Assembly: GCA_016842085.1 (NCBI GenBank)
Contig: JAEVEX010000047.1
Coordinates: forward strand, 823-42,383
DNA length: 41,561 bases
Direction: 5' to 3'
Source of the DNA: Candidatus Thermoflexus tengchongensis
Lineage (GTDB): Bacteria > Chloroflexota > Anaerolineae > Thermoflexales > Thermoflexaceae
Position 1 is the stretch's first letter, and every line of letters begins with the position of its first letter. The notes below the pieces were generated by a model that was not told the origin of the DNA, ran no database searches, and worked only from the letters and a program-made list of their open reading frames with translations. This document shows, piece by piece, positions 98-16,677 of this stretch. The translations under genes and the position numbers were made by a program.

Positions 98-982
98 ATG
101 GGCCCCGAGATCCACCCGTCCATCACCGCTTTTCTGGCCGAGCTGGAGCGGCGGGGACGCAGCCCCCGCACCGTGAAGGGCTACCGCGAGGACCTGCAGG
201 CCTTCGCCCGGTGGATTCAAGACACCTTTGGCGAGCCCTTCGAGCCCCGCGCCGTGCTCCCCGCCGACGTCCGCGACTACCGGGCCTTCCTGCTGGCCCG
301 CTTCCGCCCCGCCACCGTCAACCGCCGCCTGATCGCCCTGCGGGCCTTCTTCCGCTGGCTGAAGGCTCGGGGGGAGATCCCGGAGGATCCCACGGAAGGC
401 CTTCCCCTGGCCCGGGAGGTCCGCCCGGCGCCGAAGGCCCTCACGCCCCAGGAGCTGCGGCGGCTGCTGCGGGCCGCGCATCGGGGCGGGAATCCCCTGC
501 ACATCGCGGTGCTGACCATGCTGGCCTTCGCCGGCTTGCGCGTGGGGGAGGTGTGCGAGCTGCGCCTTTCGGACGTGCAGCTGACCCCGCGCTCCGGGCG
601 GGTGGTGGCGCGAGGCAAAGGGGAGAAAACCCGGACGATCCCCCTGGCGCCGGAGGCGCGGCGGGCGCTTCAGGCCTATCTGGCCGTGCGGCCGGAGATC
701 GACTCCGACCGGCTGTTCATCGGCCGCCGCGGGCCGCTGACCCCCTCGGGGGTGTGGCAGATCGTGAAGGCCTACGCCCGCCAGGCGGGGCTGGAGGATG
801 TGCATCCCCACGTGTTGCGGCACACCTTCGCCACGCGTCTTTTGCGGGAGGCAGGGGCGGATCTGGTCACGGTGGCCGAGCTCCTGGGTCATGAGTCCTT
901 AAACACTACGGCCCGTTATACACGCCCTTCGGAGCGAGATCTGGAGGCCGCGATGGAGCGGTTGGGAGGATTCGGAGGTTGA
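98..982 (+). CDS. Tyrosine recombinase, XerC/XerD-like
   Basis: Site-specific DNA recombinase of the phage-integrase family, 294 residues, the usual size for Xer proteins. It has an N-terminal SAM-like core-binding domain (about 7-92) and a C-terminal catalytic domain (about 115-285). All catalytic residues are visible: R148 (AGLRVGE), K174 (GKGEK), H238 and R241 (HVLRH), H265 (LLGHESLNTT) and the nucleophile Y274 (ARYT). AGGAG lies about 10 bases before the ATG, and a perfect promoter sits upstream. It is monocistronic and followed by a more A/T-rich gene block. It could be a chromosomal dimer-resolution enzyme or the integrase of the adjacent accessory block; the sequence alone does not decide. 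No dif-like site was identified by eye. Confidence 0.93.
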   Translation: MGPEIHPSITAFLAELERRGRSPRTVKGYREDLQAFARWIQDTFGEPFEPRAVLPADVRDYRAFLLARFRPATVNRRLIALRAFFRWLKARGEIPEDPTEGLPLAREVRPAPKALTPQELRRLLRAAHRGGNPLHIAVLTMLAFAGLRVGEVCELRLSDVQLTPRSGRVVARGKGEKTRTIPLAPEARRALQAYLAVRPEIDSDRLFIGRRGPLTPSGVWQIVKAYARQAGLEDVHPHVLRHTFATRLLREAGADLVTVAELLGHESLNTTARYTRPSERDLEAAMERLGGFGG

Positions 983-1105
983 TGCGAGGAAGTCGCCGGT
1001 TTCATTTACGATGCGAGCGCTGCTGATTTCGAAATTTAACAGAACAAGCTCAACGCGTGTGGCGCAAGAAGTCTCTGGCGGATCCTCTGAAGCGGGAGCC
1101 GTGAA

Positions 1106-2206
1106 ATGATATCGGATGCCCGTCAGGCTCGATCCCGGGGTCTCTGGATGCGTGCTGTGTCTTTCACGATACTGCGCGAGCTACTTGCCTTTGCCGCGCA
1201 GTCTTCGAAAGGCCTGCGGGCAAAGGATCTGGATGCTGTTGCTGAACGGCTGAAAACACCAAGCGGGAGGACTCCGGCGCGAACCACCCGCTATCACTAT
1301 CGGAACATCCTCCTAAATCTGGGGATCCTCGGACGTCGCGCAGGACGTTATTTCGTTCAACATCAGGATCCCTTAGTTCAGGCGTTGCTCCGGGCGCTTC
1401 AGCCGGGCAATCCAGAACTGAGCCTTGATGAGCGTTATCACTTTGCGAATCTGGTGCTTCGCAATGCGGATTGCCAGGCTCACTTCTTCGACCTCTTTAC
1501 CGACGGAGAGCCTCTGACGGACCTGGACCTGTTCATTCGGCATGGCCAGCCGGTCGCATGGCGCGTGATCGCGAAGCAGGAGATGACATCTGCCGAGCGA
1601 TCTGCGGAAACCTCTTCCCGGATGCCCGTCCGAGACCGATGCCGGGGCCGACAGCGCAAACGGCGGACGTCTCCTCCATCGCCGGTTCGGATATGGAATC
1701 TGAGCAATGGGCGGGAGCGCATGCTCACGCTTGAGGACGAGCGGCAGGCGATCCTGTATGGCGTTCGTTTCTGGGCTCGTGACGAGCTGGGGTTTCTGGA
1801 TGAGATTTTCATGGAGCGCTACGGGAACGTGATGTTCCCGGTAGAGATTCATGGTTCTGTGCCGGATCCTCGCGTGATCGAGGCGCTGCAGGAGCGCCTG
1901 GATCCTGAGCAGGAGTGGACTTTTTTCAGTGTCCGTGAGCTGGCATGGGAGCTCTGCCCAGCCCTGAAAATTCCCCTGCGCCGGTTTTTCGCTACTCTGG
2001 AGGCCCTTTACCATGCCTATCCAGCCTGGCTCATGTGGATCCCTACTTCCTCCCACATTGCCGCCTTTGCTGCCCCCTCCACCTTTGAAGAGAAACTTCA
2101 GCTGCGCAGTTATTTCCGGGATCCGTGGGGCCGGTATATCTCTCATTTCTGGGCCAACGTCCGATTACGGGAGGTAAAGCCATGGACAATCCCTATCAGC
2201 GCCTGA
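1106..2206 (+). CDS. Unrecognised protein, first gene of an ATPase-PIN trio
   Basis: A 366-residue soluble protein that I do not recognise. The first 90 residues are helical and basic and read like a winged-helix unit (helices around 15-60, then YHYRNILLNLGILGRRAGRYFV), which suggests but does not prove DNA binding. The C-terminal half (about 215-350) is a mixed helical domain rich in aromatic residues. Between them, about residues 155-205, lies a low-complexity Arg/Ser-rich stretch unlike either flank, possibly a disordered linker or the scar of compensating frameshifts. Its 3' end overlaps the ATPase start (2182) by 25 bases, so the two are probably translationally coupled. Its lower GC than the flanking genes fits an acquired block. 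Confidence 0.7.
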   Translation: MISDARQARSRGLWMRAVSFTILRELLAFAAQSSKGLRAKDLDAVAERLKTPSGRTPARTTRYHYRNILLNLGILGRRAGRYFVQHQDPLVQALLRALQPGNPELSLDERYHFANLVLRNADCQAHFFDLFTDGEPLTDLDLFIRHGQPVAWRVIAKQEMTSAERSAETSSRMPVRDRCRGRQRKRRTSPPSPVRIWNLSNGRERMLTLEDERQAILYGVRFWARDELGFLDEIFMERYGNVMFPVEIHGSVPDPRVIEALQERLDPEQEWTFFSVRELAWELCPALKIPLRRFFATLEALYHAYPAWLMWIPTSSHIAAFAAPSTFEEKLQLRSYFRDPWGRYISHFWANVRLREVKPWTIPISA

Positions 2207-3357
2207 GGCTGAGGTATAACCCCTTTGAGCCCGCCGCAACCGATGTGCCGTCGGATTGTCCGATGTGGATCCCGGAAGCCTGGGAGAACCCACTTCGGGA
2301 GTTCATCCGAAGGGCCCAGCATACCCGGGGTCCGAAAGCGTTCGTGATCCTTGGCAGTTATGGGGCTGGGAAGACATATCTGCTGCGCTGGCTGGAGCGG
2401 GAGCTGTTCCCCGGAGAGCGGATCCGGCCCTTTTACTTTAAGAACCCCGGGGTTCGTTTCTATGATCTTGCCGACAGGCTGTTCAGTCAGCTGGGCCGGG
2501 AGGAGCTGGCTAAGGCAATCTGGGAATGGGCTCGCCCCAGCATCCCGGGCTTCCAGATCCCATGGCTGAGTTTCTCTTTCCTGAACATCCTGGAAGCCCT
2601 TTACAGGCAAAACAAAAATCACGAAGCTATCCTCGCCATCGCGGCCCGCCTCAGGGAGCATCAGATCACTCAAGATGAAGAGATCGCCTTTCAGTTTGGG
2701 CGCCTGGTGGTTGAAACGGCAAAGCAACCTTATTTCTCCTATCGGGATTTTGTGGCAGGGAAGCGCGGCGCTCTGGTCCCGGAGCAGGATGAGGCCCCTT
2801 ACTTCGCGGCAGTGATCCGCATCATGCAGAAGATCTGGGATCTCCAGGGCGTGGCTTTCCTTATTGATGAATTCGAAGAGGTGGCAATGGAAAGAAGGCT
2901 GTCCAGGCGGGAGGCTTATGATTACATGGCGACGCTCCGACAGCTGATCGATGCCACAGCGAACGAACCGTTCTGGCTGGCGCTTTCCATGACGCCTGAA
3001 GCAGCTCAGAAAACCGAGGAGCTCAAACCGGACCTCTGGCAGCGTATGACCAGCCAGGGGAATTATCTCCTGCGAATCCCTCCTCTGAAGCCGGAAGATG
3101 CCGAGGAGATCCTTCGACGACGGCTTCGGTGCGCACGGTTGGAGGATCAGGACAGCAGTCTTTTCCCGTTTCCGGATGGAATCGGCAAGATCCTTCGGGA
3201 AGACGTGCGCTCTTCTCCCCGGCGGCTAATCCAGCTGGCCAGCCACGCCATTGCTCGAGCCGCCAGCGACCAGCAAGTTGAAATCCCCCTCAAGGCCGAT
3301 TTCCTGCAGAAGCTTCAGGAGGAGCTTTTCCCTCAGCCGCCCCGAAAGGAGGGATGA
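2182..3357 (+). CDS. AAA/ORC-like P-loop ATPase
   Basis: A 391-residue ATP-binding protein. Walker A is GSYGAGKT at 58-65 and Walker B is FLIDE at 226-230, with a sensor-like segment (LALSMTP) about 40 residues later and a helical winged-helix-like C-terminus containing SPRRLIQLA. This layout resembles Orc1/Cdc6-like and BREX BrxD-like ATPases, but I cannot place it in a named family. The ATG at 2182 is chosen over an upstream in-frame ATG at 2125 because GGGAGG sits about 6 bases before it and the domain begins directly there. The gene overlaps the preceding gene by 25 bases and the PIN gene by 4 (ATGA). An ATP-driven DNA-loading or sensing role for its partners is inference. Confidence 0.85.
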   Translation: MDNPYQRLRLRYNPFEPAATDVPSDCPMWIPEAWENPLREFIRRAQHTRGPKAFVILGSYGAGKTYLLRWLERELFPGERIRPFYFKNPGVRFYDLADRLFSQLGREELAKAIWEWARPSIPGFQIPWLSFSFLNILEALYRQNKNHEAILAIAARLREHQITQDEEIAFQFGRLVVETAKQPYFSYRDFVAGKRGALVPEQDEAPYFAAVIRIMQKIWDLQGVAFLIDEFEEVAMERRLSRREAYDYMATLRQLIDATANEPFWLALSMTPEAAQKTEELKPDLWQRMTSQGNYLLRIPPLKPEDAEEILRRRLRCARLEDQDSSLFPFPDGIGKILREDVRSSPRRLIQLASHAIARAASDQQVEIPLKADFLQKLQEELFPQPPRKEG

Positions 3358-4166
3358 TGGCCCCCGCATCCTCGAGCATGGAATCGGTGATCTTTGTCGA
3401 TACGAGTGTGCTGCTCAGGATCCGGCTTTTCTGGGATGCGGCAAGCCGTTACCAATTGATTTCGCCGGGACACCTGGAGCGCAAAAAAGTGCTCCAGGAA
3501 TTCAACCAGTTTACTAAGAGACTAAAAGAAGTGCTGTTATATGGCTATAATGCTCTGGCTTATCTGCAGAATAGACAGAGGAACGGCGTTCGGATCTATA
3601 CCTCCCGGCTTGTTCGGCTTGAGATGCTTCGGGCCGTTCTGGAGGGCGCTCTGCACCAACAGCTGGCCCGCTGGGGCATCTTGTGGCATCCCGGGCGAGC
3701 AGGATTGGCTTTCGGCGAACCGCTTCAATCTTACTTGCCCTCGGATGAGCTCAGGGAGTCCGTCGAAAGAATTCTTAACTTCCCAAACGATTTGAGCGCA
3801 CGATGTGGGGTTCAAATCCTGTTTATAGAGGATTACAAAGATTATTTTCGAGACGCGCTTGAGATCGCAGAATTGATTACAAAAGAAGTGATCCTTGACA
3901 ATATCATGGATAGTTTTATCTACGCTAGCGCCCTGGCAGTGCAAGCCGACCAGCTGATTACTTCCGATAGGGCTTTTAGCAAGATGATCAACAAGCTTTG
4001 CAATCCTTCGGGGGATCGTCGGTGGGATCACCTGCAGCAAAGCCTGAGGCGAATTCTGGAACGTTACGGGCAAGAACAGCCAGTATTCCCGGCATCGCCC
4101 GGGCTTGGCTCGGCAGGCACCCTGGAGATCTTGCAGATTCGGTCTGATTCGCTGACAAAACCTTGA
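3354..4166 (+). CDS. PIN-domain nuclease, ATPase-linked
   Basis: A 270-residue protein with a PIN-like Mg-dependent RNase fold. Acidic residues sit at the expected places: D16 in FVDTSVLL, E90 in VRLEMLR, D182/D186 in the DNIMDSFIYASA helix and D205 in ITSDRAF. It is twice the length of a VapC toxin: about 65 residues of insert follow the first strand, another insert lies at about 100-150, and a 55-residue tail follows the core. No small antitoxin gene precedes it; the immediate upstream partner is the ATPase, which it overlaps by 4 bases. AGGAGGG at 3347-3353 favours the ATG at 3354 or 3357. It is therefore probably an effector or processing nuclease of the three-gene unit rather than a classic toxin, which is inference. 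Confidence 0.82.
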   Translation: MMAPASSSMESVIFVDTSVLLRIRLFWDAASRYQLISPGHLERKKVLQEFNQFTKRLKEVLLYGYNALAYLQNRQRNGVRIYTSRLVRLEMLRAVLEGALHQQLARWGILWHPGRAGLAFGEPLQSYLPSDELRESVERILNFPNDLSARCGVQILFIEDYKDYFRDALEIAELITKEVILDNIMDSFIYASALAVQADQLITSDRAFSKMINKLCNPSGDRRWDHLQQSLRRILERYGQEQPVFPASPGLGSAGTLEILQIRSDSLTKP

Positions 4167-4185
4167 AAGAGGCGCCCGTGGTTGG

Positions 4186-4200
4186 CATACCCGGGGTATG
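4186..4200. promoter_or_regulatory. 15-base palindrome, possible operator
   Basis: CATACCCGGGGTATG is a perfect inverted repeat (7-base arms around one G) in the 203-base gap between the PIN gene and the methyltransferase. It is of operator size and symmetry. No regulator gene is adjacent, so function is only a possibility. Confidence 0.35.
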
Positions 4201-4369
4201 AAGAGATGGGTTCCGGATCGGTGATCTTCTTTCCCGGGTCCTTCAATCCGGGCCGGGCACCCTGGCCCCAGCCCGGATCGAGAACGGGGAAAGGGGCCTT
4301 TTAGTCCGCTTCGATCCGGGCGTATTCCCTGCCTGAAAGGGCGAACCGTCAGATTCCGGGGTGGATCGT

Positions 4370-5662
4370 ATGAAAGCGATGAGCGCTTTCACAAAGCCTT
4401 CCGTTGTATTGCCCGATGGCTTCGTTCTGCGAGCCGATTTGAGCCGCGCGGCCACACCGACGCTGCTTCGCCAGCGGCCGATCCATCGATGGTTCTGGTT
4501 TCCTCATTCTTATTCGCCGGAGCTGGTGGAGGCCATCCTGGAGGCATGGGATCTTCCACCCGGATCTCGCCTTCTGGATCCTTTCTGCGGCGCCGGGACC
4601 ACCCTGCTGGTGGCCCGGGAACGCGGCTTCCCGGCCGCCGGTGTGGATCTTTCCCCCCTGGCGGTGCTGGCCAGCCGGGCCAAAACGCGATGGCCCGGCA
4701 GTTCCGAAGGGATCCTCTCCAGCCTTCAACGTCTTCGGCGCGTCGTCTCACAACAGCTTCGGGTTTTCCGTCGTCGGGCTCTGTTTCGCCCCGTTTCGCC
4801 CCCTTCCCCACGGCTGGCCCGAGCGTTCACACCGATCGAATGGGCGGCGCTCTCCGTGCTCCGGGAGTGGATCCTTCAGCTCCCGCCCTCTTTCGAGCGT
4901 GATTTGCTGTGGCTGGCTCTGCTGCGCATCCTTCCCCGGTTCAGCCGGGCGAGCGGCGATGGGGGATGGCTGCGCTGGGTGGAGCGCCCGGAAGCGACGC
5001 CGGAACAGATCCTGAGCGCCTTCGAGGAGGAAATCCGACGTTTCACGGAGGATCTGGAGTGGCGGGCGCGGCATCCTGTCCCCCCGGCGCGGGTTTCCGT
5101 TCATCGGATGGATGCCCGCCGGATCCATCGACTTCCACGGATGTTCGACGCCGTGATCACTTCCCCGCCTTATCCCAATCGTCACGATTACACCCGGATC
5201 TTTCATATCGAGCTGCTTTTTATGGGATGTAGAGAGGAGGATATCCTCCGCCTCCGCCGGGAATCCCTGCGCTCTCACGTGGAGGCTCGGGGTTTGGATC
5301 TGACTCCGGAAGGATATTTGCCGCCGTCTCGTTTGCAGGCCTATCTGAATGACCTGAAGGATCTTGATCCACGGGTTCCGCGCATGGTGGCCGGTTACTT
5401 TGAGGATCTGTTCTGGGTGTTGCGCGGCGCCCGTCAGATTCTAAACCCAGGAGCGCGTCTTGCGCTGGTGGTCGGGAATGCCCGCTACGGCGGGCAGATC
5501 CTCCCGGCAGACGAGCTGATGGTAGAGATCGGGGAGCAGGCCGGTTATCGCTTTGAGGGCGCCTGGGTGATCCGGCTGCGCGGGAACAGCGCTCAACAAA
5601 TGGGTCGATACGGCCGACTTCCCTCCCGGGAAAGCGTCGTGTTCCTGAAGGCCAGGGCATAG
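4370..5662 (+). CDS. DNA methyltransferase (N4-cytosine or N6-adenine)
   Basis: An S-adenosylmethionine-dependent DNA amino-methyltransferase of about 430 residues. The SAM-binding motif I is LLDPFCGAGTT (68-78), followed by the acidic GVDLSPLA. The catalytic motif IV is SPPYPNR (265-271), typical of N4-cytosine and some N6-adenine enzymes. The order is motif I then IV, with about 190 residues between them that may hold target recognition. The C-terminal LALVVGNARYGG resembles the later catalytic-domain strands of the same family. The ATG at 4370 has GGGGTGG 5 bases upstream; an in-frame GTG at 4361 is the alternative. It stands between the ATPase-PIN trio and the restriction genes, so it could protect host DNA for either. 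Target sequence unknown. Confidence 0.86.
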   Translation: MKAMSAFTKPSVVLPDGFVLRADLSRAATPTLLRQRPIHRWFWFPHSYSPELVEAILEAWDLPPGSRLLDPFCGAGTTLLVARERGFPAAGVDLSPLAVLASRAKTRWPGSSEGILSSLQRLRRVVSQQLRVFRRRALFRPVSPPSPRLARAFTPIEWAALSVLREWILQLPPSFERDLLWLALLRILPRFSRASGDGGWLRWVERPEATPEQILSAFEEEIRRFTEDLEWRARHPVPPARVSVHRMDARRIHRLPRMFDAVITSPPYPNRHDYTRIFHIELLFMGCREEDILRLRRESLRSHVEARGLDLTPEGYLPPSRLQAYLNDLKDLDPRVPRMVAGYFEDLFWVLRGARQILNPGARLALVVGNARYGGQILPADELMVEIGEQAGYRFEGAWVIRLRGNSAQQMGRYGRLPSRESVVFLKARA

Positions 5663-6050
5663 GATCCGGCAAACATGGGGTTCATCGGTTCGGACCGGTT
5701 TTGCGCCAGCCCATGAGCTGTCCTGGAGAGTCAATTGGTTCGATGGGGATAAAAGATGGAATCGAACGAGAGGAGCGAAAGCGGCAGGGGCAGATCATGA
5801 GGCGAGGCCCTTGCGACTCGAAGGAAGCGCTGGCGCGAGGACTCTTGTCGGCAGCCTTCATCCGGCGCTATCATGGCCCTGAAAACAAAAACGCCTCGCC
5901 GGTCCCTCCCACGGCGAGGCGATGGCGCGGGGCGGCTTGGGCGCCCCGGCGGGGAATAGTTTAGCACAGCGCGCCCGCCGCGGGCAAGAAGGGCCCCGGC
6001 GGGCGCGCGCGTTTCCGGAGGCCGTCATACGGAAGAATGGGGAGAAGCAT
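5663..6050. other. 388-base gap between the two methylase genes
   Basis: No convincing gene is present; open frames here lack a ribosome site and a protein-like composition. The gap contains a perfect 10-bp hairpin with a minus-strand T-tract (5882-5921), then a very GC-rich stretch and the ribosome-binding site of the DUF1156-type methylase (GGGGAGAAG near 6039). No clear promoter for the downstream operon was found by eye. Confidence 0.6.
5882..5921 (-). terminator. Rho-independent terminator, minus-strand orientation
   Basis: Arms CGCCTCGCCG (5892-5901) and CGGCGAGGCG (5912-5921) pair perfectly over 10 bp with a 10-base loop. Read on the minus strand, the hairpin is followed by TTTTTGTTTTC, the classic intrinsic-terminator tail. 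Read on the plus strand there is no T-tract. No minus-strand gene is recognised upstream, so what it terminates is unclear. Confidence 0.65.
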
Positions 6051-8087
6051 ATGGAACGGAAGCTAATCGAGGATGTTCTCCCGGTGGATGTGATCAGCCG
6101 GGACGCGGGCATTGAGATGAGCTTCAAGCCCACCCCTTCCTACTTGGCCCGATGTCGGGAGCTGGGGCTTCCCCATCCGGGCCGGAAATTCTTTGACCCC
6201 AAGATCCGGAGCCTGCTTCCCTGGCTGGCCCGGCGTTCCCGGGCTGTGGCGCGAGCGCTGAATCTGGCGGCGATCCTTCCCGCGGCCACGCCTCCGGACC
6301 TTTATCTTCGGATGCTGGGGTTTTCGAAGGAGCAGCTGCCGGCGCTGGTGGCCGCGGGCTATCCCCCTCTTCTCTCCTACGCCCGGCCGGAGGTGGACCC
6401 TTCCCTCCTGGAGTCCGTGGTGATCATGGATCCCATGGCCGGCGGTGGAACCATCCCGCTGGAAGCGGCCATCCTGGGAGCCCGGACGATTGCCGGCGAT
6501 TACAACCCCGTGGCCTTTCTGATCCTTCGGGCAACGGTGGAGTGGCCAGCCCGGTATGGCCCGGATCTTTATCGTCGGGTGCGGGAGGAGGCCCGGGCCC
6601 TGATCGCCTTCGCCCGGGAGGCGCTGGCCCCCTATTATGGGGGAGAGGACCGCGGCTATCTCATCCTCCGGCAGGCGCTGTCCGATTCGGGCCCTATCCC
6701 GCTGGTCTCCTCGGTGATCCTGGGGAGGGGCATCGCCCTGCAGCTGAATGGGGGGAGGCCGAGGCTGGCGCCGGCGTCCGTCCGGGGCCCGACGCGACGG
6801 GATCTGATCGAGCCATGGATACAGCAGCACCGGGCTATGATGCAGGGGAACCCGGATCTGCTGATCACCCACCGGGTGGTAGCGGTGCAGGAGCGGGGGG
6901 GATTCCGTCCCGCGCGGGAGGAGGATCAGGAGCTTCTGCGACGGGCCCTGGAGGCCAACATGGCTTCCCTCCCGCTCCTCCCGGACACGGATCTTCCGGA
7001 AGACAACCGGATCTTCCGGAAGATCCGGGCGCTGGGAAGCTACCGGTATCTGTTCAACCCCCGGCAGGCGCTGGCGATGGGGCGTCTGATCCGGTATGTC
7101 CGGGAAAGGGTACGGGCGCTGGCGCGGGAGGATCCGGAGTTCGGCGCCGCGGTGGCCACCTATCTGGCCTTCGGGCTCTGTCGTCTGGCGGATTTCAACT
7201 CCATCCTGACTTCCTGGAATGAACGCCAGGGAACCATCCGGGATGCCCTGGGCAGCTACTATAAGTTCCGAGAGCTGAGGCTGGAGGGCGTGTATGCGGA
7301 GGCGGTGGTGCCCTATCGGACGCTGGAGTGGATTTTCGAGCCGGACGCCGAGCGCGAGACCGCAGGAGGCATCTGCCCGGTCCTGAAGGAGCTGACACGG
7401 AGCCTGCGGGGGGATTTGGGGGGACGGATTCAAATTTTCATGATGGATGCCCTTCAGCTGTCCCGCCATTTCCGTCGCCTGGCGGACGTGATCAACGTGG
7501 ATCCGCCCTACTTCGACGTTCACGGATACAGCGATTTCTCAGAATTCTTCTGGCCGATCCTGCAGACGACCCTGGAGGAGGCCCTGCCCGTCCTGTTCGG
7601 CGGACGGGTGCTTCTGGATTGGTCCCCGGCGATGAGGACGGCGCCCCGTCAGCATGAGGTGATTGGGCGAATGGGGAGGGAGGACGAGGAGTTCGAGGGC
7701 CGGCTCGCGCAAGCCCTGCAGGAGATGCGCGAGGCGCTGAAGGACGACGGCCTGCTGGTGCTCTGGTTCAGCCATCGGGAGCTGAAGGCATGGCAGGCGG
7801 TAGCCCGGGCCCTCCATCGGAGCCGCTTCACCGTTGTCAATGTGATCCCCCTGGTGTCTGAACATCCCACACGAAGCGTCACCCGCGGCGGTCGGGGGGG
7901 CATCCACCGGGTGCTCGTCGTGGTGGCCCGCAAGGCGGAGTTCGCTCCCGTGGTGGACATCGACACCCTCCGGGAGCGGTTCCTGGCTCAGCTGCAAAAG
8001 GCCCGCCTGTTCCCCCACGAGCGGATCGACCCGGCGGAAATGGAGACCCTGGCCTCGGCCCTTGAGATCCTTTTCCGGGAGGCCTGA
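6051..8087 (+). CDS. DUF1156-type DNA methylase
   Basis: A 678-residue DNA methyltransferase. The N-terminus (RKLIEDVLPVDVIS, then a basic LARRSRAVARAL helix) matches the DUF1156 lead-in of large adenine-type methylases. Motif I is DPMAGGGTIPLEA at 127-139, followed by the acidic AGDYNP. The catalytic DPPYFD is at 484-489, with a 350-residue insertion between the two motifs as in that family. The ATG at 6051 is chosen because GGGGAGAAG precedes it and family homology begins there; the open frame extends to 5922 but that extension is low-complexity. The restriction endonuclease gene starts one base after the stop, so this is most likely the protecting methylase of that R-M system. Confidence 0.86.
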   Translation: MERKLIEDVLPVDVISRDAGIEMSFKPTPSYLARCRELGLPHPGRKFFDPKIRSLLPWLARRSRAVARALNLAAILPAATPPDLYLRMLGFSKEQLPALVAAGYPPLLSYARPEVDPSLLESVVIMDPMAGGGTIPLEAAILGARTIAGDYNPVAFLILRATVEWPARYGPDLYRRVREEARALIAFAREALAPYYGGEDRGYLILRQALSDSGPIPLVSSVILGRGIALQLNGGRPRLAPASVRGPTRRDLIEPWIQQHRAMMQGNPDLLITHRVVAVQERGGFRPAREEDQELLRRALEANMASLPLLPDTDLPEDNRIFRKIRALGSYRYLFNPRQALAMGRLIRYVRERVRALAREDPEFGAAVATYLAFGLCRLADFNSILTSWNERQGTIRDALGSYYKFRELRLEGVYAEAVVPYRTLEWIFEPDAERETAGGICPVLKELTRSLRGDLGGRIQIFMMDALQLSRHFRRLADVINVDPPYFDVHGYSDFSEFFWPILQTTLEEALPVLFGGRVLLDWSPAMRTAPRQHEVIGRMGREDEEFEGRLAQALQEMREALKDDGLLVLWFSHRELKAWQAVARALHRSRFTVVNVIPLVSEHPTRSVTRGGRGGIHRVLVVVARKAEFAPVVDIDTLRERFLAQLQKARLFPHERIDPAEMETLASALEILFREA

Positions 8088-8088
8088 A

Positions 8089-8871
8089 ATGCAACTGGAA
8101 ACTCAAAGGCAGATCCTGAAGATGGTCGTGGAGTTTGCGGAAAGCGCCCTTCCGCTGGACCTGGATGTGGAGCGTCTCCGGCGGGCCTTTCCCTTTCACG
8201 CGCCGTTCTTCACCGATGAAGGTCTGCGGGCCTTTAAGGTCCAGAGAAACATCGTGACCCGGCTGGGGCAGGTCCTCATCCCGCGTATCGCGGAGCTGAT
8301 CGCACGAGATAAGTATCAGAAAGTGCACCGGGAGCACCCGATAACCGGACAGGTCGACGAGGGGATGATGGCCAGAATCCAGCAAATCGTGAACGATCTA
8401 AGAGCAGGAAGAAGGCAGCCCAACGCCCAGAAAGAATGGGAGGAAATCCTGGGATCCGCCTCAAACAGGATGGTTCCGCAACAGGTGGTCGCCGACCTGT
8501 ATGTGGAAGATTTCGAGGGTGGGCCGCTCTTTGTGGAGATCAAAAGCCCGCGCCCCAACCTGGATATCTGCGCTGAGACCAAACGGAAGATGCTGACCTT
8601 CCGCGCCATGATGCTGGCGATGGGTCAGCCTCAAGCCAAAGCATACATGGGCCTCTGGTATAACCCCGATATCGACCGCGAGAAATATTCCCATCTCATC
8701 GTCCGTCGGGTTATGGACATGTCCCATGAAGTGCTCCTGGGGGAGGAGCTGTGGGATACGATTGGGGGACCCGGAACCTACGACGAGATCCTCGAAATCA
8801 TGAAGAAGGCCGAGCAACACATTCGGAAGCGGGAAGGCCGCGATGCCGGAATGGCAGGTCGCCCTGATTAG
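8089..8871 (+). CDS. TdeIII-family type II restriction endonuclease
   Basis: A 260-residue PD-(D/E)XK nuclease. The catalytic core reads VADLYVEDFEGGPLFVEIK: D136, E150 and K152. It is followed by SPRPNLDICAETKRK, and the C-terminal LGEELWDTIGGPGTYDEIL is the other segment I recognise as typical of TdeIII-like enzymes. Characterised relatives cut GGNCC; whether this one does is unknown. The ATG at 8089 lies one base after the methylase stop with GGGAGG 6 bases upstream, so the pair is translationally coupled. The in-frame ATG at 8062 inside the methylase is unlikely. The downstream gene overlaps its last 29 bases. Confidence 0.85.
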   Translation: MQLETQRQILKMVVEFAESALPLDLDVERLRRAFPFHAPFFTDEGLRAFKVQRNIVTRLGQVLIPRIAELIARDKYQKVHREHPITGQVDEGMMARIQQIVNDLRAGRRQPNAQKEWEEILGSASNRMVPQQVVADLYVEDFEGGPLFVEIKSPRPNLDICAETKRKMLTFRAMMLAMGQPQAKAYMGLWYNPDIDREKYSHLIVRRVMDMSHEVLLGEELWDTIGGPGTYDEILEIMKKAEQHIRKREGRDAGMAGRPD

Positions 8872-9547
8872 CGCGGGAGCCGCCATCCTGAGCAGCGCCC
8901 TCACGGCCTACATCTCCCACCGTTTGGAGTGGAGGCGGCGCCGGGTGGAGGAGAACCTGCGCTGGCTGGAAGAGCGCTATCGCCCGGCTCTCGCCTTCAT
9001 GGGAGAACTGGTGACCGAGCTGGCTGGCCAGCACCCCCTGGAACACGCCGAACTTCTATCCATCCGCCACCGGGTGGAGGAGCTGACCCGGAAGGCGTGG
9101 CCCAGCGCCCTTTACCTGGATCCCGAGGATACCGGGTTAAGGGAGCTTGTGCTGGAAACGCTGCGCTACGCGAGGATTGCGGAGAGCAGGGAGAATTTTG
9201 TCGAGTACACGGTCAATGTGCTGAGAAATTTCTCTGCGCTCCAGCGGATCTTTCTCGAGGAGCGGGACGAAATCCTCTCGGGCCAATATTTGAAAAGCCT
9301 GATCCGCAAACGGGAGGACAGGAAGCGAAAGGAAGACCGGCGCTTTCAGCGATTCTGGCAGGAGCTGGAATCGTTTCGAGATGGCAAAAGGACGCTGAGC
9401 CAGATCCTTCATCAGATTCATGAGTCAGGCATACGAGGGGAGCTGCTGAGCCTCCTCCTGGAGAATCTGGAGAGGAAATCGGCGGGGATGGGAAAGGAGC
9501 GCGTTATAGAACTTCGGGAGGCATGTCGGGAGCGCGGATGGCTTTGA
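8843..9547 (+). CDS. Membrane-anchored coiled-coil protein of the R-M operon
   Basis: A 234-residue protein of no family known to me. One hydrophobic segment (about 6-25, VALISAGAAILSSALTAYIS) is followed at once by a basic stretch (HRLEWRRRR), predicting a single N-terminal anchor with the body in the cytoplasm. The rest is highly charged and helical, with long coiled-coil-like runs (about 28-75 and 140-190). It overlaps the endonuclease gene by 29 bases and is followed closely by the STAND ATPase (9565), so all four genes look like one transcript. A role in placing the ATPase or endonuclease at the membrane is inference; it could also be an effector. Confidence 0.75.
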   Translation: MPEWQVALISAGAAILSSALTAYISHRLEWRRRRVEENLRWLEERYRPALAFMGELVTELAGQHPLEHAELLSIRHRVEELTRKAWPSALYLDPEDTGLRELVLETLRYARIAESRENFVEYTVNVLRNFSALQRIFLEERDEILSGQYLKSLIRKREDRKRKEDRRFQRFWQELESFRDGKRTLSQILHQIHESGIRGELLSLLLENLERKSAGMGKERVIELREACRERGWL

Positions 9548-9564
9548 AGGAGGAGGGGATCCCC

Positions 9565-12216
9565 ATGGTCTTTATCGGCCGAAAGGAAGAGCTTCGCCTG
9601 TTTGAAGAATCCATAGATGCCCTCGTCAGGCGCGATGCCCCCCGCTATTCCGTCTTCCTGATTCATGGAGAGGGAGGGATCGGGAAAACCACGCTGCTCA
9701 GGAAATATGAAGAGCTGGCCCGTCAGCGCGCGGGCGAGCTCTGCTGTGTCTATCTGGATCTGGAGGATCTCAGGATCCGATCTGAGGATGGGACTCCTTA
9801 CCTGATGAGGGTCCTGGCGAATAGCCTTAGAGAACGGGATGCGCGGTTCCAGGCTCATGAGTTTGAGAAGGCATGGGAGGCATGGCAGAAAGGCCAGGTT
9901 GAGGCGCGCGACTGCTCGAGAGCCCTGAATCAGGATCTCGTGTCCATGGCCCGGTATTGTCCCCTGGTGATCCTTCTGGACACATGGGAGGTGGTCCACC
10001 CCTTTGCCTCCTCATGGTTGGTCCGCGGGCTCATGTTTCATCTCTTATCTAATCTGGAGCTCGGAAATCGCTTTATCTTTGTCACGGCAGGAAGGCTTCC
10101 AGAACGGTTTGTTATGGAAGCTCTTGATGCTCTTCATCAATTTCGGGATTCCGTTCACTTTCGCGAGTTGATGAAATTCACACCGTCGGAGGTGAAGGAG
10201 TATCTCGATGCCTATAAGATCCTCGATGCTTATGGGATCAGAGAGGATCCTGAAAGGGTTGATGAGCTTACCCAAAGGGCTTATGAACTCACCCGTGGCA
10301 TTCCGCTGGCACTGGATATTCTTCGATGGCTGCCCCAGAGAGACCTTGAGAGCCTGGCAGCCATAGCGCATGATCGCAAGATTGTCCAGGCCTTGTTCTA
10401 CCGCTTTCTGCGGCACCTCTCGAAGTCACACATCTATCGTCGCTTTTTTTACAGCATGGCCATGATGCGCCCTACAGGTGAGCGATGGCTGCAACACCGT
10501 TCACAGCTTATAAGGGCCATGCTGGGCTTGCCTCGGCCGATCTACGAGTGGGCAAGGAAGGTCGAAGAGAAGTTTTCATTTGTTCGAAGTGGCAATCTAA
10601 CCCTTCATCCTGATGTGCGTGAAATCATCGTTCAATATCTTAAGAATGAGAGTGAGAGTCGCCTCGACGCTATGGAGCTGGCGGAGCGGGCGCTGCACTT
10701 TTGTTCGAATAGTCGAAAGGAGGCCAGGGAGGGAACGGAGGAATGGAGGGAATGGACGCTCCACATCATTCACTACCGGTTCTGGCTGCAGAAATATGAA
10801 GAGGGGCTCAGGGAGGCCATTGATCTTCTCGCCGTACCTTCCCATGCTACCCGTCTGGAGCTCGGGGAGCTTCTGAACGATTGGGAAGAGGATATCAGCC
10901 ATCGGGCCTCTCATCTGGCCCGGGATTTTGCCGACCTCCGTGAGATAATCGAGAATTGGGGAAGTCCCGAGGTGATAAACCGGTATCAGGAACTGGCCGA
11001 GCGCTATCGCATAGATCCCCAGAGGCGTGTCACCACGGCCCTGGAGCTTGCTCGAAGGCTTGCTAGGAGGGGGAATCTTGCTGAGACCCTTCGGGCTCTA
11101 AAGGATGCTGCAGACAATGCTCTCGAGAGTCCGCCGCCAGGGACTGCTGAGAGGTGGGCTTTGCTGCTGGAAGGGATCATCCAGCATATATTGAGGTGGC
11201 GTTCAGCGGGACAGGAAGCGCTGATGCTTGGCCGCAGGATGGTCGGGGATCACCCCTGGCTCCGGATGGCTGGGGCCCGGATAAAGAGTCCTCAAGGAGA
11301 TGTCCTGGGCGCTTATATTGCCTTGAGAAAGGCTCGCCGGGGGATCGAACAAATTGCTCCTGAAAGGCGAGCGCAATTTGAAGAACAAATCCAGAAAATG
11401 GAGCGCAATCTTCAGGAGAGATTGCCTGGCGGCGCCCGGAGGGCAAAGATTCTGACTATGCTGGGCAATGACAGTAGCGCGTATGGAGAATTCAGTGAGG
11501 CAGAAAGATACTATCGAGAGGCCCTCTCGAGTAACCCCGAATATATCCCGGCTGCGCTTAAGCTCATTCATCTGCTTCGCCATCTGGATCGTTTGCAGGA
11601 AGCCTGGGACTTGCTTCAGCAAATTCTCAGATTGAATTGGACAGCTTTCCCTAACCGATGGAGGGCTGGTATTGAGGAAGCCCGAGGCAGTCTACTGGCT
11701 ATGGAGGGAAAGCAGGAAGACGCAGAGCGGTCCTTCCGGCAGGCAATCGAATGGTCTCCGGATTACGCAAACCCTTACATTAGCCTGGGATGGATTTACC
11801 TTCATCGCAGGAATGGAGACAACGCATTTGAATGCCTGCACCAGGCTCGAACAATCCTGGAGCAATTCAACGCCGGTCCCCTATACCAGGTTTATAACGG
11901 ATTGGGGATGGCCCAGTTGTTAAGAAACCGGCCGCATGAGTACTTTTTTGAAGTTGCCCATAGTCTTTGTGGAAAGCTACCGAAGCCGTCGCGGCCTTAT
12001 CAGGTTATCGCCCATCACGGATTGGCATCGCTCGCATTGAGGGAATTCGGGGAAGCAAACAGGTGTTTTGAGCAGTTAGAAAATTTCCGCCAGGCAAGGG
12101 GATGGCTTCGCACTCTGATTCAGGATGTCCGGTTGCTGGCAGCGCTACTTCCGAAGGATGCGCAACAAATTGGCCACGCCGAAGGAATTCTCCAACGTCA
12201 CCTCTGGCAAGGTTAA
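9565..12216 (+). CDS. STAND-type ATPase with C-terminal TPR repeats
   Basis: An 883-residue signal-transduction ATPase. The N-terminus starts directly with the nucleotide-binding module (FIGRKEEL, like the GREDEL box of NB-ARC/STAND proteins). Walker A is GEGGIGKTT at 35-43, Walker B is LVILLD at 134-139, and the GxP-type GIPLALDIL is at 245-253. A winged-helix-like part follows, then a long helical region with recognisable TPR units in the last 300 residues (for example EFSEAERYYREALSSNPEY and DAERSFRQAIEWSPDYANPY). Such TPRs commonly sense a ligand and trigger oligomerisation. No effector domain is fused, so one may act in trans. The ATG at 9565 has AAGGAGGAGG about 7 bases upstream. The gene is richer in A/T than most of the window. 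Confidence 0.88.
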   Translation: MVFIGRKEELRLFEESIDALVRRDAPRYSVFLIHGEGGIGKTTLLRKYEELARQRAGELCCVYLDLEDLRIRSEDGTPYLMRVLANSLRERDARFQAHEFEKAWEAWQKGQVEARDCSRALNQDLVSMARYCPLVILLDTWEVVHPFASSWLVRGLMFHLLSNLELGNRFIFVTAGRLPERFVMEALDALHQFRDSVHFRELMKFTPSEVKEYLDAYKILDAYGIREDPERVDELTQRAYELTRGIPLALDILRWLPQRDLESLAAIAHDRKIVQALFYRFLRHLSKSHIYRRFFYSMAMMRPTGERWLQHRSQLIRAMLGLPRPIYEWARKVEEKFSFVRSGNLTLHPDVREIIVQYLKNESESRLDAMELAERALHFCSNSRKEAREGTEEWREWTLHIIHYRFWLQKYEEGLREAIDLLAVPSHATRLELGELLNDWEEDISHRASHLARDFADLREIIENWGSPEVINRYQELAERYRIDPQRRVTTALELARRLARRGNLAETLRALKDAADNALESPPPGTAERWALLLEGIIQHILRWRSAGQEALMLGRRMVGDHPWLRMAGARIKSPQGDVLGAYIALRKARRGIEQIAPERRAQFEEQIQKMERNLQERLPGGARRAKILTMLGNDSSAYGEFSEAERYYREALSSNPEYIPAALKLIHLLRHLDRLQEAWDLLQQILRLNWTAFPNRWRAGIEEARGSLLAMEGKQEDAERSFRQAIEWSPDYANPYISLGWIYLHRRNGDNAFECLHQARTILEQFNAGPLYQVYNGLGMAQLLRNRPHEYFFEVAHSLCGKLPKPSRPYQVIAHHGLASLALREFGEANRCFEQLENFRQARGWLRTLIQDVRLLAALLPKDAQQIGHAEGILQRHLWQG

Positions 12217-12251
12217 TTCAAAGAATTCAAAGAGGAAGGGGAAAACGAAAG

Positions 12252-12369
12252 TGGGAGCGGCGGGATTCGAACCCGCGACCTCCCAGCAATCCCCGCGCCT
12301 TATGGGACGGCCGAGAGGATGCCTTCCCCTCATCTGGGGGGCGCTCTGACCACTGAGCTACGCTCCCAC
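12252..12369 (-). tRNA. Over-long tRNA-like gene, identity unclear
   Basis: On the minus strand a 7-bp acceptor stem (GGGAGCG with CGCTCCC, extendable to 9 bp), TA, a canonical D-arm (GCTC-AGTGGTCA-GAGC), a variable AGGTC and a perfect T-arm (GCGGG-TTCGAAT-CCCGC) are all present with discriminator A. The product is about 116 bases instead of 75-90 because roughly 40 extra bases lie between the D-arm and AGGTC. The best anticodon-like hairpin (CCCC-CAGATGA-GGGG, reading GAT) lacks T33, so I do not assign an amino acid. A -10 box TATAAT (12374-12379, minus) lies just upstream, suggesting transcription. No CCA is encoded. Confidence 0.6.
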
Positions 12370-12952
12370 ATAAATTATACAGCATCCCTCTCAGCGCCAG
12401 ATAGGGCCCATCTCATTCGCCCTTCAGCCCCAGCTTCCCACCCAGGACCAAAAGGGTCTGACGCCCCGTTTCGTCCCCCACCAGCCCACGTTCAGCAGAA
12501 AGCACGCCGCAATCCACACCACCTCCACCAGACGCCGAAGGGTCTCCAGGCTCAACAAAGGAATTCCGGGTGGTCTGAACGAGTAGCCGGAATGACTATC
12601 ATCTTCATGAACCCGTCCTTTTCGGGATCCCTCCATGCTCTTCGCCTTCCTGGACGGCCTGGCCCTGATCCTGGAGGACCGCGAGCTCCGCTTCGCCCTC
12701 CGTCCTCCTCTGCCTCCCTTCATCGGGGAGATCCTCTTTCTGCTCCCGGACGGCCCCTTCGTCCTCGCCCTCGCGCGGGCCGATGATGGGAAGCTCCTGG
12801 CCCTGCGCCTGGACTTCCGCCATCGCGAAGCCGAAGTCCTCTGAGCGCAAATCGGCTTTTCCTCTCCGATTTCTCCCCATACCGTGAGAGCATGGGGATA
12901 GAGGTCCGCTATCCCATGGGCGTGTGTCATCACGCCCATGGAGGCTTTCCTC
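12370..12952. other. Stretch between tRNA-like gene and integrase
   Basis: Besides the minus-strand TATAAT of the tRNA-like gene and one doubtful short frame (12635-12844), nothing here looks like a gene. A minus-strand open frame spans 12424-13017, but its composition is Arg/Ser-rich and it runs into the integrase, so it appears to be a shadow. The region may contain decayed coding sequence. Confidence 0.4.
12635..12844 (+). CDS. Possible small protein, 69 residues
   Basis: A short frame with a protein-like composition (alternating Leu-rich strands and acidic residues, for example GEILFLLPDGPFVLALARADDG) that ends about 110 bases before the integrase. It has no convincing ribosome-binding site, and I recognise no family. 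It could be a remnant of a longer gene or chance in GC-rich DNA. Confidence 0.25.
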   Translation: MLFAFLDGLALILEDRELRFALRPPLPPFIGEILFLLPDGPFVLALARADDGKLLALRLDFRHREAEVL

Positions 12953-13780
12953 ATGCGGCTGTTGGAAGCGCTCATCGAGTTCGAGGCCGATGTGCGCCTT
13001 GCGGGATCCCCGCGCACGGCGGAGATCTACGCCTATGCCGTCCGCCGCCTGATCCGGGCCGTTGGGGACGTGGAGCTCCGGGAGGTGAGCGAGCGCGATC
13101 TGCGCCGGTTCCTGGCGGGGATGAAGATCGCCCCGGCCACCCGCCGCCTCTATGTCATCGCCCTGCGCAGCTTCTTCGCGTTCTGCGTCCGGATGGGCTG
13201 GCGCGAGGACAACCCCGCCCGGCGGCTGCGGCTCCCCGCCCGTCCGTGGCGCCGTCAGGCGGTGGCCCGGGCGGAGGACGTCCGCCGCCTGCTGGCCGCC
13301 TGCGAGGACTCGCCTCGCGGGCGCCGTAACGCGGCGGTGGTGGCGATGCTGTTCGAGTCGGGCCTGCGGGCCTCCGAGCTGTGCGCCCTGCGGCCGGAGG
13401 ACGTGGATCTGCGGCGGCGGATCGCGCGGGTGATGGGGAAGGGGAACCGGGAACGGACCGCGCCCTTCGGGGAGGAGACGGCGCGGCGGCTGCGGGCGTG
13501 GCTGGAAGTCCGCCCGGGTCATCTGCGGACCCTGTTCGGCCTCAACCGCCACGGGCTCAAGACCATGTTGCGGCGGCTGTGCGCGGCGGCAGGGATGGAA
13601 ACCCTCAGCCCGCATGCCTTCCGGAGAGGGTGGGCCACGCGACTGGTGGAGATGGGGGTGCCGCTGAAGGCCGTTAAGGAATGGGGCGGGTGGAGCGACT
13701 ACCGGATCCTGGAGGTCTACATCCGGTATGTGGAGACGGAGGCGATGGTGGGGCTGTATCGCTCCCCTCTTGGCTCATAA
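12953..13780 (+). CDS. Tyrosine integrase ending inside a tRNA-Met 3' half
   Basis: A phage-integrase-family recombinase of about 275 residues from the ATG at 12953 (GGAGG 8 bases upstream; an in-frame ATG at 12938 is the alternative). It has an N-terminal SAM-like domain (about 5-90) and a catalytic domain (about 100-265) with R139 (SGLRASE), K163 (GKGNRE), H221 and R224 (HAFRR) and the nucleophile Y256 (LEVYIRY). The usual second histidine is Trp247 (EWGGWSD), a variation seen in some integrases. The stop codon TAA (13778-13780) is part of the anticodon loop of a tRNA-Met 3' half, placing the gene exactly at an attachment site. It is unlike the recombinase at 98-982 in sequence. Confidence 0.9.
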   Translation: MRLLEALIEFEADVRLAGSPRTAEIYAYAVRRLIRAVGDVELREVSERDLRRFLAGMKIAPATRRLYVIALRSFFAFCVRMGWREDNPARRLRLPARPWRRQAVARAEDVRRLLAACEDSPRGRRNAAVVAMLFESGLRASELCALRPEDVDLRRRIARVMGKGNRERTAPFGEETARRLRAWLEVRPGHLRTLFGLNRHGLKTMLRRLCAAAGMETLSPHAFRRGWATRLVEMGVPLKAVKEWGGWSDYRILEVYIRYVETEAMVGLYRSPLGS

Positions 13781-14617: not shown

Positions 14618-16174
14618 CTATCCAAGGACCCTTTCCAGCAGACTTCCCAGCCCGTAGCCCCCCAGAGCCCCTCCCGCGAGGAAAGGAAGCCCGGCATGGC
14701 TTTTCCCCTTCGCCAGAAACCCACGAACCAGAATCCCATGGCCGATCAGGATCCCGAGGAGCGTCCCTACCGCTGGCCACGGCGTGGGATGCGTCCGCAG
14801 GGCGGAAAGGGTTAAAACCGCCGGCAGAACCGCATCTCCGAATCCCAGGGCCAGGGCCGGGCTCCCGGATCGAGAGGGCGGGAAGCTCAGGGGGATCAGA
14901 AACATGAGGGGCATGCGCTCCCGGATCGCCCATTCCGCAAGCCGCTGCATATGCCCGGAGACATAAACCGCCAGCGCATCGTAAAGCATCATCACGACCA
15001 GCAGGGCCACCGTGGCGATGGGGGTCCAGAGATGGCCCATGTAAACCGCCGCCGCGCTGCAGATCAGCAACCCCATCCCGTTCAACGCCACCCATCCCGG
15101 CCGACGGCGCCACCAGAGCGCCAGACCGAAGGCAAGCCCCGCCAGGATCGGAAGGATCCCGGGAGGGATCGGCCCGATCAGCGAGACCAGTAAAAGACGG
15201 AGAGAGAAGAACAGGACAAGGGTCAACATGGCCATCATAAAGGCCCTGAGGATCCCTTGAGAGCTCCGCAGCCGGAGCAGGAGAAAGACCAGAAGCAAAC
15301 CGAGGGCGATCCATCCCAGGGCCATCGGGATGGTGGAGATCGCCTGTTCGCCAGCGGGACGGACTGCAAGCTGCTCAGAGAGCTGACGGGCCACGGCCAG
15401 CGAGGGGTCGGCTGGAGGGGAAGGATGCCCGGAGATCAGGCCGGATTCCAGGAAACCGAGCCAGTGGACAGCCAGGAGGATGGCCATACCGCCGCCCATG
15501 GCCGCTGGCCCGGATGGGGGATGCGAGGATTCGATGTCCGTAGAGGAAGGCCCGGATGCTCGTTCCATGCGGGCCACCTGCAGGCGCAATCCATGAACCG
15601 CCAGCACGCGCACCCGCTCGCCCGCGGCGATCCGCCCCTCCACCGACCGCGCCGTCCACGTTTCCCCCCGCACCCAGACCGTCCCCTCCGGATCCAGATC
15701 GGTCTGGGCGATACCCTCCGCCCCGATCAGACGCTCCGGGGTCTGGAGGGGAGGGCGCCGTCCGAGCTGCCGCACCAGGAAGGCCAGACCGAACGAGGCG
15801 GCGGCCGCCATCAGGGTGGTTCCGACGAGGACCACGGGAGCGATCCGTTGCCCGGCGCCTGGGGGAAGCAGGAGCATGCCCCCCAGCCCCAGCGCCAGGG
15901 CTCCGGACAGGCCGAGGTATCCGCCGCTCTGGAAATAGAGCTCCGACAGGAAGAGGAGGGCGCCCAGCAGGATCAGCAGGAGCCCGGCGGCGCTGATCGG
16001 CAGGCGCAGGAGGCCGATCAGCGCCAGGCCCAGCATCAGGACCGCCAGGCCCTCCGCGAGCCCGGTTCCCGGGATGCTCCAGGCGGCGACGGCGGCCAGG
16101 ATCCCGCCCACCAGCAGGAGATACGCCACATTGGGATCCGCCAGCCAGGCCCACAGCTGCTGCAGGAGATCCAT
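14618..16174 (-). CDS. NfeD-like / presenilin-like membrane protease fusion
   Basis: A polytopic membrane protein of 518 residues from the ATG at 16174 (a GTG at 16183 gives 521; numbering below uses 521). The N-terminal part (about 18-140) has four to five hydrophobic helices, then a soluble beta-rich OB-like segment (about 148-206, GAEGIAQTDLDPEGTVWVRGETW ... VRVLAVHGLRLQV), which is the NfeD layout. After a linker and one helix (about 228-250), the C-terminal half (about 285-520) has seven or more helices with YD at 401-402 in one and GFGD at 447-450 in another, the two catalytic aspartates of presenilin-type intramembrane proteases. A near-PAL element GLPFLAGGAL follows. CsoR lies just upstream on the same strand. 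Confidence 0.75.
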   Translation of the reverse strand: MDLLQQLWAWLADPNVAYLLLVGGILAAVAAWSIPGTGLAEGLAVLMLGLALIGLLRLPISAAGLLLILLGALLFLSELYFQSGGYLGLSGALALGLGGMLLLPPGAGQRIAPVVLVGTTLMAAAASFGLAFLVRQLGRRPPLQTPERLIGAEGIAQTDLDPEGTVWVRGETWTARSVEGRIAAGERVRVLAVHGLRLQVARMERASGPSSTDIESSHPPSGPAAMGGGMAILLAVHWLGFLESGLISGHPSPPADPSLAVARQLSEQLAVRPAGEQAISTIPMALGWIALGLLLVFLLLRLRSSQGILRAFMMAMLTLVLFFSLRLLLVSLIGPIPPGILPILAGLAFGLALWWRRRPGWVALNGMGLLICSAAAVYMGHLWTPIATVALLVVMMLYDALAVYVSGHMQRLAEWAIRERMPLMFLIPLSFPPSRSGSPALALGFGDAVLPAVLTLSALRTHPTPWPAVGTLLGILIGHGILVRGFLAKGKSHAGLPFLAGGALGGYGLGSLLERVLG

Positions 16175-16189
16175 CGTGGCCACCCCGAC

Positions 16190-16546
16190 TTATGTCTTCC
16201 GCAGGACGATCGCCATCGCCTCTTTCAGGCCTTCCAGGGCCGCGCGGCTGTCCTCATCCATCGCGCAGGCGATGATGCACGCATCCATATGGCTTTCCAG
16301 GAGGGTGATGATCGCCTGATTGAGCGCGGCCTTGACCGCCGCCAGCTGCACCAGCAGGCTGTTGCAATCCTGGTGCTCCGCCAGCATCCGTCGAACGGCG
16401 GCCAGGTGTCCCTCGATCCGAGCCAGACGGGCGTCCAGGGCATGCTCCTGCTCCGGCGTCAGATATACCTGAACCTGTGGCGCACGGGCTGCTCGAAGGA
16501 GCTTGCTCCGCGCGGATTCCCGGGTTGCAGCAGAACGCTTGGGCAT
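16190..16546 (-). CDS. CsoR/FrmR-family metal-sensing repressor
   Basis: A 118-residue all-helical DNA-binding repressor of the DUF156 family, which releases DNA when it binds copper or another metal or reacts with formaldehyde or sulfide. The signature Cys-His-Cys set is present at C61, H86 and C90 with the exact family spacing (25 and 4), inside ARIEGHLAAVRRML and LLESHMDACI. The ATG at 16546 is chosen over one at 16573 because AAGGAGG lies 5 bases before it. The membrane protease gene starts 15 bases after its stop, so the two form an operon, and the repressor probably controls both. The inducer cannot be read from the sequence. Confidence 0.9.
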   Translation of the reverse strand: MPKRSAATRESARSKLLRAARAPQVQVYLTPEQEHALDARLARIEGHLAAVRRMLAEHQDCNSLLVQLAAVKAALNQAIITLLESHMDACIIACAMDEDSRAALEGLKEAMAIVLRKT

Positions 16547-16677
16547 CCGGCCTCCTTGGGCAGATCTGTTCATCTTTCAGCATACTTGAGGAAGCCCATA
16601 AGAGCCAGGATCCCTCTTCAAAAGGGGGAAGAGCGCCCGGACCCACTCGACCGGGCGCGGAAAGCCCGGAGCTCCTC

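Follow-up and report, generated by a model that had tools for sequence, protein, structure and literature searches.

The NfeD-presenilin fusion gene

The window analyzed here, a stretch of 41,561 nucleotides (contig JAEVEX010000047.1, positions 823 to 42,383, of assembly GCA_016842085.1), comes from Candidatus Thermoflexus tengchongensis, a member of a genus of hot-spring bacteria. On its minus strand, which also encodes all domains and motifs described in this section, lies an uninterrupted open reading frame of 518 aa (14618..16174) with orthologs in all Thermoflexus genomes and an ATG start at 16174 that the alignment shows to be conserved as the start among relatives. The encoded protein begins directly with an NfeD integral membrane domain (aa 15-129, 15788..16132; PF24961, NfeD_membrane, 48.7 bits, cut-off 26), without an N-terminal ClpP-like domain or any ClpP match in Pfam, and continues with an NfeD OB or partner-binding domain (aa 147-201, 15572..15736; PF01957, 64.8 bits, cut-off 29.1). 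A linker (aa 204-222, 15509..15565), fast-evolving by alignment and regional dN/dS, then leads to a nine-helix presenilin/SPP homolog (PSH) domain (aa 223-517, 14624..15508), supported by PF06550 and by comparison of an AlphaFold model with 4y6k and 4hyg. The Pfam SPP family PF06550 matches aa 288-515 with 85.9 bits (cut-off 23.9, E 4e-24), and Peptidase_A22B also lies above its curated cut-off. The NfeD_membrane, NfeD OB, and SPP matches are far above chance and all exceed the curated cut-offs, so that the original prediction of an NfeD-like N-terminus fused to a presenilin-like protease was borne out.

Searches of solved structures gave the same assignment. The middle part of the protein matches the OB domain of a stomatin operon partner protein (PDB 3wwv, E 2.8e-9, phmmer), and together with the PF01957 score this identifies the OB-like segment as NfeD by sequence, as had been proposed; the C-terminal half matches the PSH structure 4hyc (E 2.7e-15). 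Against the NCBIfam PSH equivalog model NF041679, the protein scores 105.7 bits and does not reach the cut-off of 125, and we therefore refer to it as a PSH relative rather than a PSH equivalog.

The predicted YD and GFGD motifs are both present, but the residue numbers originally assigned to them (401-402 and 447-450) are three too high because they were counted from an upstream GTG at 16183; from the ATG, they are Y398-D399 (14978..14983) and G444-D447 (14834..14845). D399 and D447 (originally D402 and D450) align with D162 and D220, the catalytic pair of archaeal PSH (PMC9282858), and lie in TM6 and TM7; by homology, this agrees with the aspartate pair originally predicted. Before the last helix, G495-L496-P497 (14684..14692) matches the C-terminal LP motif known from PSH proteins. 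An alignment of 40 proteins, made up of 35 archaeal relatives and five fusions with the window protein among them, contains 23 invariant positions, including Y398, D399, G444, G446, D447, and G495-L496-P497.

The full-length AlphaFold model, built with these 40 sequences, has pLDDT values mostly of 80-95 from about residue 290 onward in the PSH half and poor ones in the NfeD half, and was relied on for residues about 223-518 only. In this model, the presenilin half adopts the nine-helix presenilin/PSH fold, making precise an earlier estimate of seven or more helices after the OB-like segment, with D399 in the sixth helix and D447 in the seventh, so that the two aspartates of YD and GxGD sit in neighboring helices as in the A22 family (PF06550). 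The expected likeness to an archaeal presenilin homolog is close: model residues 224-512/514 superimpose on the PSH chains of 4y6k and 4hyg with Z 21.8 and rmsd 2.9 over 236-238 residues (238 for 4hyg_B). Gamma-secretase presenilin and SPPL2a structures reach up to Z 18-21, and unrelated structures stay below Z 7. The NfeD half modeled alone reached a pLDDT of 52.5 with an alignment of only 5 sequences; as both predictions are weak in this half, its OB fold is predicted from sequence. Positive charges are found in the PSH-half loops 2-3, 4-5, 6-7, and 8-9, with hardly any in 3-4 and 5-6, which suggests that the N-terminus of the PSH half is cytosolic (N-in) and that the OB domain is hence most likely on the cytosolic face, contrary to a model of PH1510 that put the OB domain outside (PMC10153343).

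Distribution, selection, and gene neighborhood

All nine genomes of the order carry the gene, as a full fusion in eight, with open frames spanning 521-542 codons, and truncated at a contig end in the ninth; among the full fusions is one in a single-contig genome of 3.3 Mb (referred to as G208). When GTDB was scanned for the PSH half, Thermoflexus proteins came out on top, fused except where a contig ends, followed by 75 archaeal loci, all 75 unfused. The searches drew on sampled genomes and listed part of the weak matches, and other bacterial groups were covered by the pattern scan. A search for the same fusion elsewhere recovered it in the other Thermoflexus genomes, but not among 400 sampled Chloroflexota, the 75 archaeal loci, or the matches listed from 489 archaeal genomes (295 + 194). 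We found no NfeD adjoining an archaeal PSH when searching with a profile trained on Chloroflexota, which might overlook divergent NfeD of archaea, and no plasmid copies of the PSH half were found. The architecture is also absent from the literature searched; a protease survey of T. hugenholtzii counts peptidase families, and its main text does not mention presenilin, A22, or NfeD (PMC8129789). As had been proposed, the fusion is a new architecture, made of known domain families and conserved across the genus with both aspartates kept.

Several archaeal and other matches were set aside. Of the longer archaeal ORFs, those examined consist either of a normal PSH preceded by read-through (L151-L153, L130) or of a PSH into which an ectodomain is inserted, and a weak PF06550 match (L051) was discarded since its sequence looks like a membrane pyrophosphatase. 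The ectodomain type is represented by Thermoplasmatota PSH proteins of ~700-800 aa (L148, 1615-3867, minus strand; L149, 1486-3921; L150, 1542-3644; L154, 865-3111; L155, 1315-3408). Between their early and their catalytic helices, these seem to have an inserted domain of ~350 aa that looks soluble and extracytoplasmic and has no Pfam name, and PF06550 matches them mainly from position about 91. A presenilin homolog bearing an ectodomain would invite comparison with nicastrin-type gating.

Both halves of the fusion are under purifying selection, with pairwise dN/dS of about 0.04-0.17 for the NfeD half, 0.14-0.38 for the PSH half, and higher values for the linker. The NfeD half, including the OB domain, is the most conserved part of the protein (80-99% identity), and the PSH half evolves faster.

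Directly upstream of the fusion, with a 15-bp gap, is a gene encoding a CsoR/FrmR-family repressor (16190..16573, minus strand; PF02583, 68.1 bits), whose true start is probably an internal ATG at 16546 behind GGAGG. Its protein sequence has the C-H-C residues of copper-type CsoR (DC...SHMDAC). A csoR-family gene occupies this position in six of the eight intact fusion loci, each from a different species, and is absent in two, the gene order being kept down to about 64% protein identity. No upstream csoR copy is present in L052 (3200-3670) or L156; L052 retains a TATGCT box and a short stretch similar to the 3' end of csoR, as though csoR had been lost there. We identified no conserved CsoR operator, and a TACC-N3-GGTA-like palindrome in G208 is not claimed as one because it is not conserved. 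Beyond csoR is a divergent peptide-ABC operon, with its SBP gene found both in the window and in G208. On the 3' side of the fusion, G208 has the gene for ribosomal protein S6 as well as another ORF, which reads as ssb; in the window, a hydrogenase-maturation protease gene and a two-integrase island are found there instead. This probable integrated island (98-13780), which adjoins the fusion gene region on its downstream side, is bounded by tyrosine recombinase genes (98-982 and 12938-13780) and contains a TdeIII-type restriction endonuclease (8062-8871), two putative DNA methyltransferases, and NACHT/AAA-TPR ATPases.

Origin of the two halves and a predicted SPFH partner

Outside the fusions, the NfeD half is matched best by short NfeDs from the same class, at 42-47% identity, and an NfeD tree places the fusions, with weak support, beside short NfeDs and apart from the organism's own ClpP-NfeD; judged from its sequence, this half is of the short type. 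A search of viral contigs for NfeD relatives that could deepen the alignment found none. The PSH half clusters with archaeal PSH, on long branches, and not with the stand-alone proteins of other Chloroflexota, so that its transfer from archaea is plausible. These stand-alone PF06550 proteins (L039-L050) have GGGD in place of GFGD/GMGD and are far from archaeal PSH.

NfeD is the partner of SPFH proteins, with which it shares operons and coevolves (PMC2636767). Each of the three Thermoflexus genomes searched has exactly two NfeD genes, one encoding ClpP-NfeD and the other the fusion, and several SPFH genes, none of them beside either NfeD gene. Such adjacency is common, but many accepted NfeD and SPFH genes are unpaired (PMC2636767), and the missing neighbor therefore does not exclude the fusion from NfeD. 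In relatives of Thermoflexus, the SPFH gene adjoining a short NfeD matches the Thermoflexus SPFH gene L133 (G000:C90) best in 8/8 cases (64-75% identity), and all SPFH neighbors of ClpP-NfeD in the other Chloroflexota sampled match L132 (G000:C22) best (56-65%). Neither L132 nor L133 is NfeD-paired in Thermoflexus. Given this clean split by NfeD type, L133 is most likely the partner of the fusion, and L132 the predicted partner of ClpP-NfeD.

Proposed function and comparison with known systems

For protease activity, SPFH binding, substrate, and role, we infer the following model, which we consider moderately likely to be correct: the fusion may act as an SPFH-docked intramembrane aspartyl protease, i.e., an aspartyl counterpart of ClpP-NfeD. 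A short-type NfeD adaptor and a predicted active GxGD intramembrane aspartyl protease would be covalently joined in a single membrane protein. Its OB domain would dock on a stomatin/prohibitin-like SPFH ring, most likely that of L133 and most likely on the cytosolic face, and the PSH half would use D399 and D447 to cleave transmembrane segments of clients gathered by the scaffold, or alternatively the SPFH protein's own hydrophobic tail. Intramembrane aspartyl proteolysis would thereby take the place of the soluble serine protease domain of ClpP-NfeD. Two known cases bear on this model: PH1510, of the ClpP-NfeD type, cuts its stomatin in the hydrophobic tail (PMC10153343), and the SPFH protein SLP2 scaffolds the intramembrane protease PARL in human mitochondria (PMC8630662). 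Taken together with the NfeD-SPFH partnership, they make docking by the OB domain and cutting by the PSH half the simplest reading. The originally suggested link to membrane quality control may hold as well, and gains weight because the NfeD half is orthologous to short NfeD proteins paired with SPFH. More tentatively, and with somewhat less confidence than in the model itself, we suggest that prokaryotic presenilin homologs act at SPFH membrane platforms, a link that would have become covalent in Thermoflexus via the NfeD adaptor.

Other explanations have to be weighed against this model. That two genes were joined by an assembly or sequencing artefact has practically no chance of being true and is rejected, because the fusion is present genus-wide, in eight species with 63-91% identity where aligned, including the single-contig genome. 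A rather unlikely reading is that the protein is an active intramembrane protease without an SPFH partner, clearing for example signal-peptide or other membrane stubs in an SPP-like manner, with an NfeD half that is a mere membrane anchor or self-assembly module. The lack of an adjoining SPFH gene, the CsoR-type regulator beside the gene in six of eight species, and the self-assembly of NfeD OB domains in crystals (PMC10153343) are consistent with it; however, no part of the protein is better conserved than the NfeD half with its OB domain, the closest relatives of this half are short NfeDs paired with SPFH, and the orthologous SPFH protein is retained in the same genomes.

In a further reading, the upstream CsoR-family repressor would control the fusion as the output of a metal/thiol stress operon, and the protease would clear membrane proteins damaged under rising levels of copper, formaldehyde, or reactive sulfur. 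We regard this as possible though on the doubtful side: the close spacing, the copper-type residues, and the conserved gene order speak for it, but csoR is missing upstream in two fusion-bearing species and no conserved operator was identified. Such an operon would in any case set expression, not mechanism, and is compatible with an SPFH-docked protease. Finally, the PSH half could be catalytically dead, or a non-proteolytic scaffold that binds transmembrane segments, much as iRhoms derive from rhomboids. Its faster evolution and its score under the PSH equivalog cut-off fit this idea, which nevertheless appears distinctly improbable given that D399, D447, the GxGD glycines, and GLP are unchanged in every aligned fusion and archaeal relative.

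To our knowledge, the activity and structure of prokaryotic presenilin/SPP relatives are known, but their biological role is not. The natural fusion points to the SPFH-NfeD membrane scaffold as their likely partner system, and makes the question of role experimentally approachable, as Thermoflexus has one cultured species. The PSH of Methanoculleus marisnigri (4HYC/4HYG/4Y6K) has the same nine-helix fold, YD and GxGD aspartates, and C-terminal GLP, but occurs on its own as a protein of about 300 aa, whereas the Thermoflexus domain is the C-terminal half of a bacterial NfeD protein. The stand-alone PF06550 proteins of other Chloroflexota families belong to the same Pfam family and phylum, yet are unfused, have GGGD instead of GFGD, and are separated by a long branch from both the fusions and archaeal PSH.

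Among NfeD proteins, the short type (NfeD1a; YbbJ of the QmcA-YbbJ complex) likewise consists of membrane and OB domains (about 205 aa), and its representatives in other Chloroflexota are the closest relatives of the N-terminal half of the fusion; it differs in having no protease domain and in being encoded beside its SPFH partner. In ClpP-NfeD (NfeD1b; PH1510/STOPP), which works with the stomatin PH1511 (PMC10153343), a protease is also covalently linked to the NfeD membrane and OB unit, but as an N-terminal soluble ClpP-like serine domain instead of a C-terminal intramembrane aspartyl one. Thermoflexus possesses both. The joining of NfeD to two unrelated proteases suggests that protease delivery to SPFH platforms may be a recurring use of NfeD. 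The SLP2-PARL-YME1L (SPY) complex of human mitochondria combines an SPFH scaffold with an intramembrane protease, as proposed here, and is an analogy only, in that PARL is a non-covalently bound rhomboid serine protease and NfeD is absent. If prokaryotic presenilin homologs do act at SPFH platforms, the fusion would represent the counterpart of SLP2-PARL in bacteria, and might serve as a model for presenilin in lipid microdomains.
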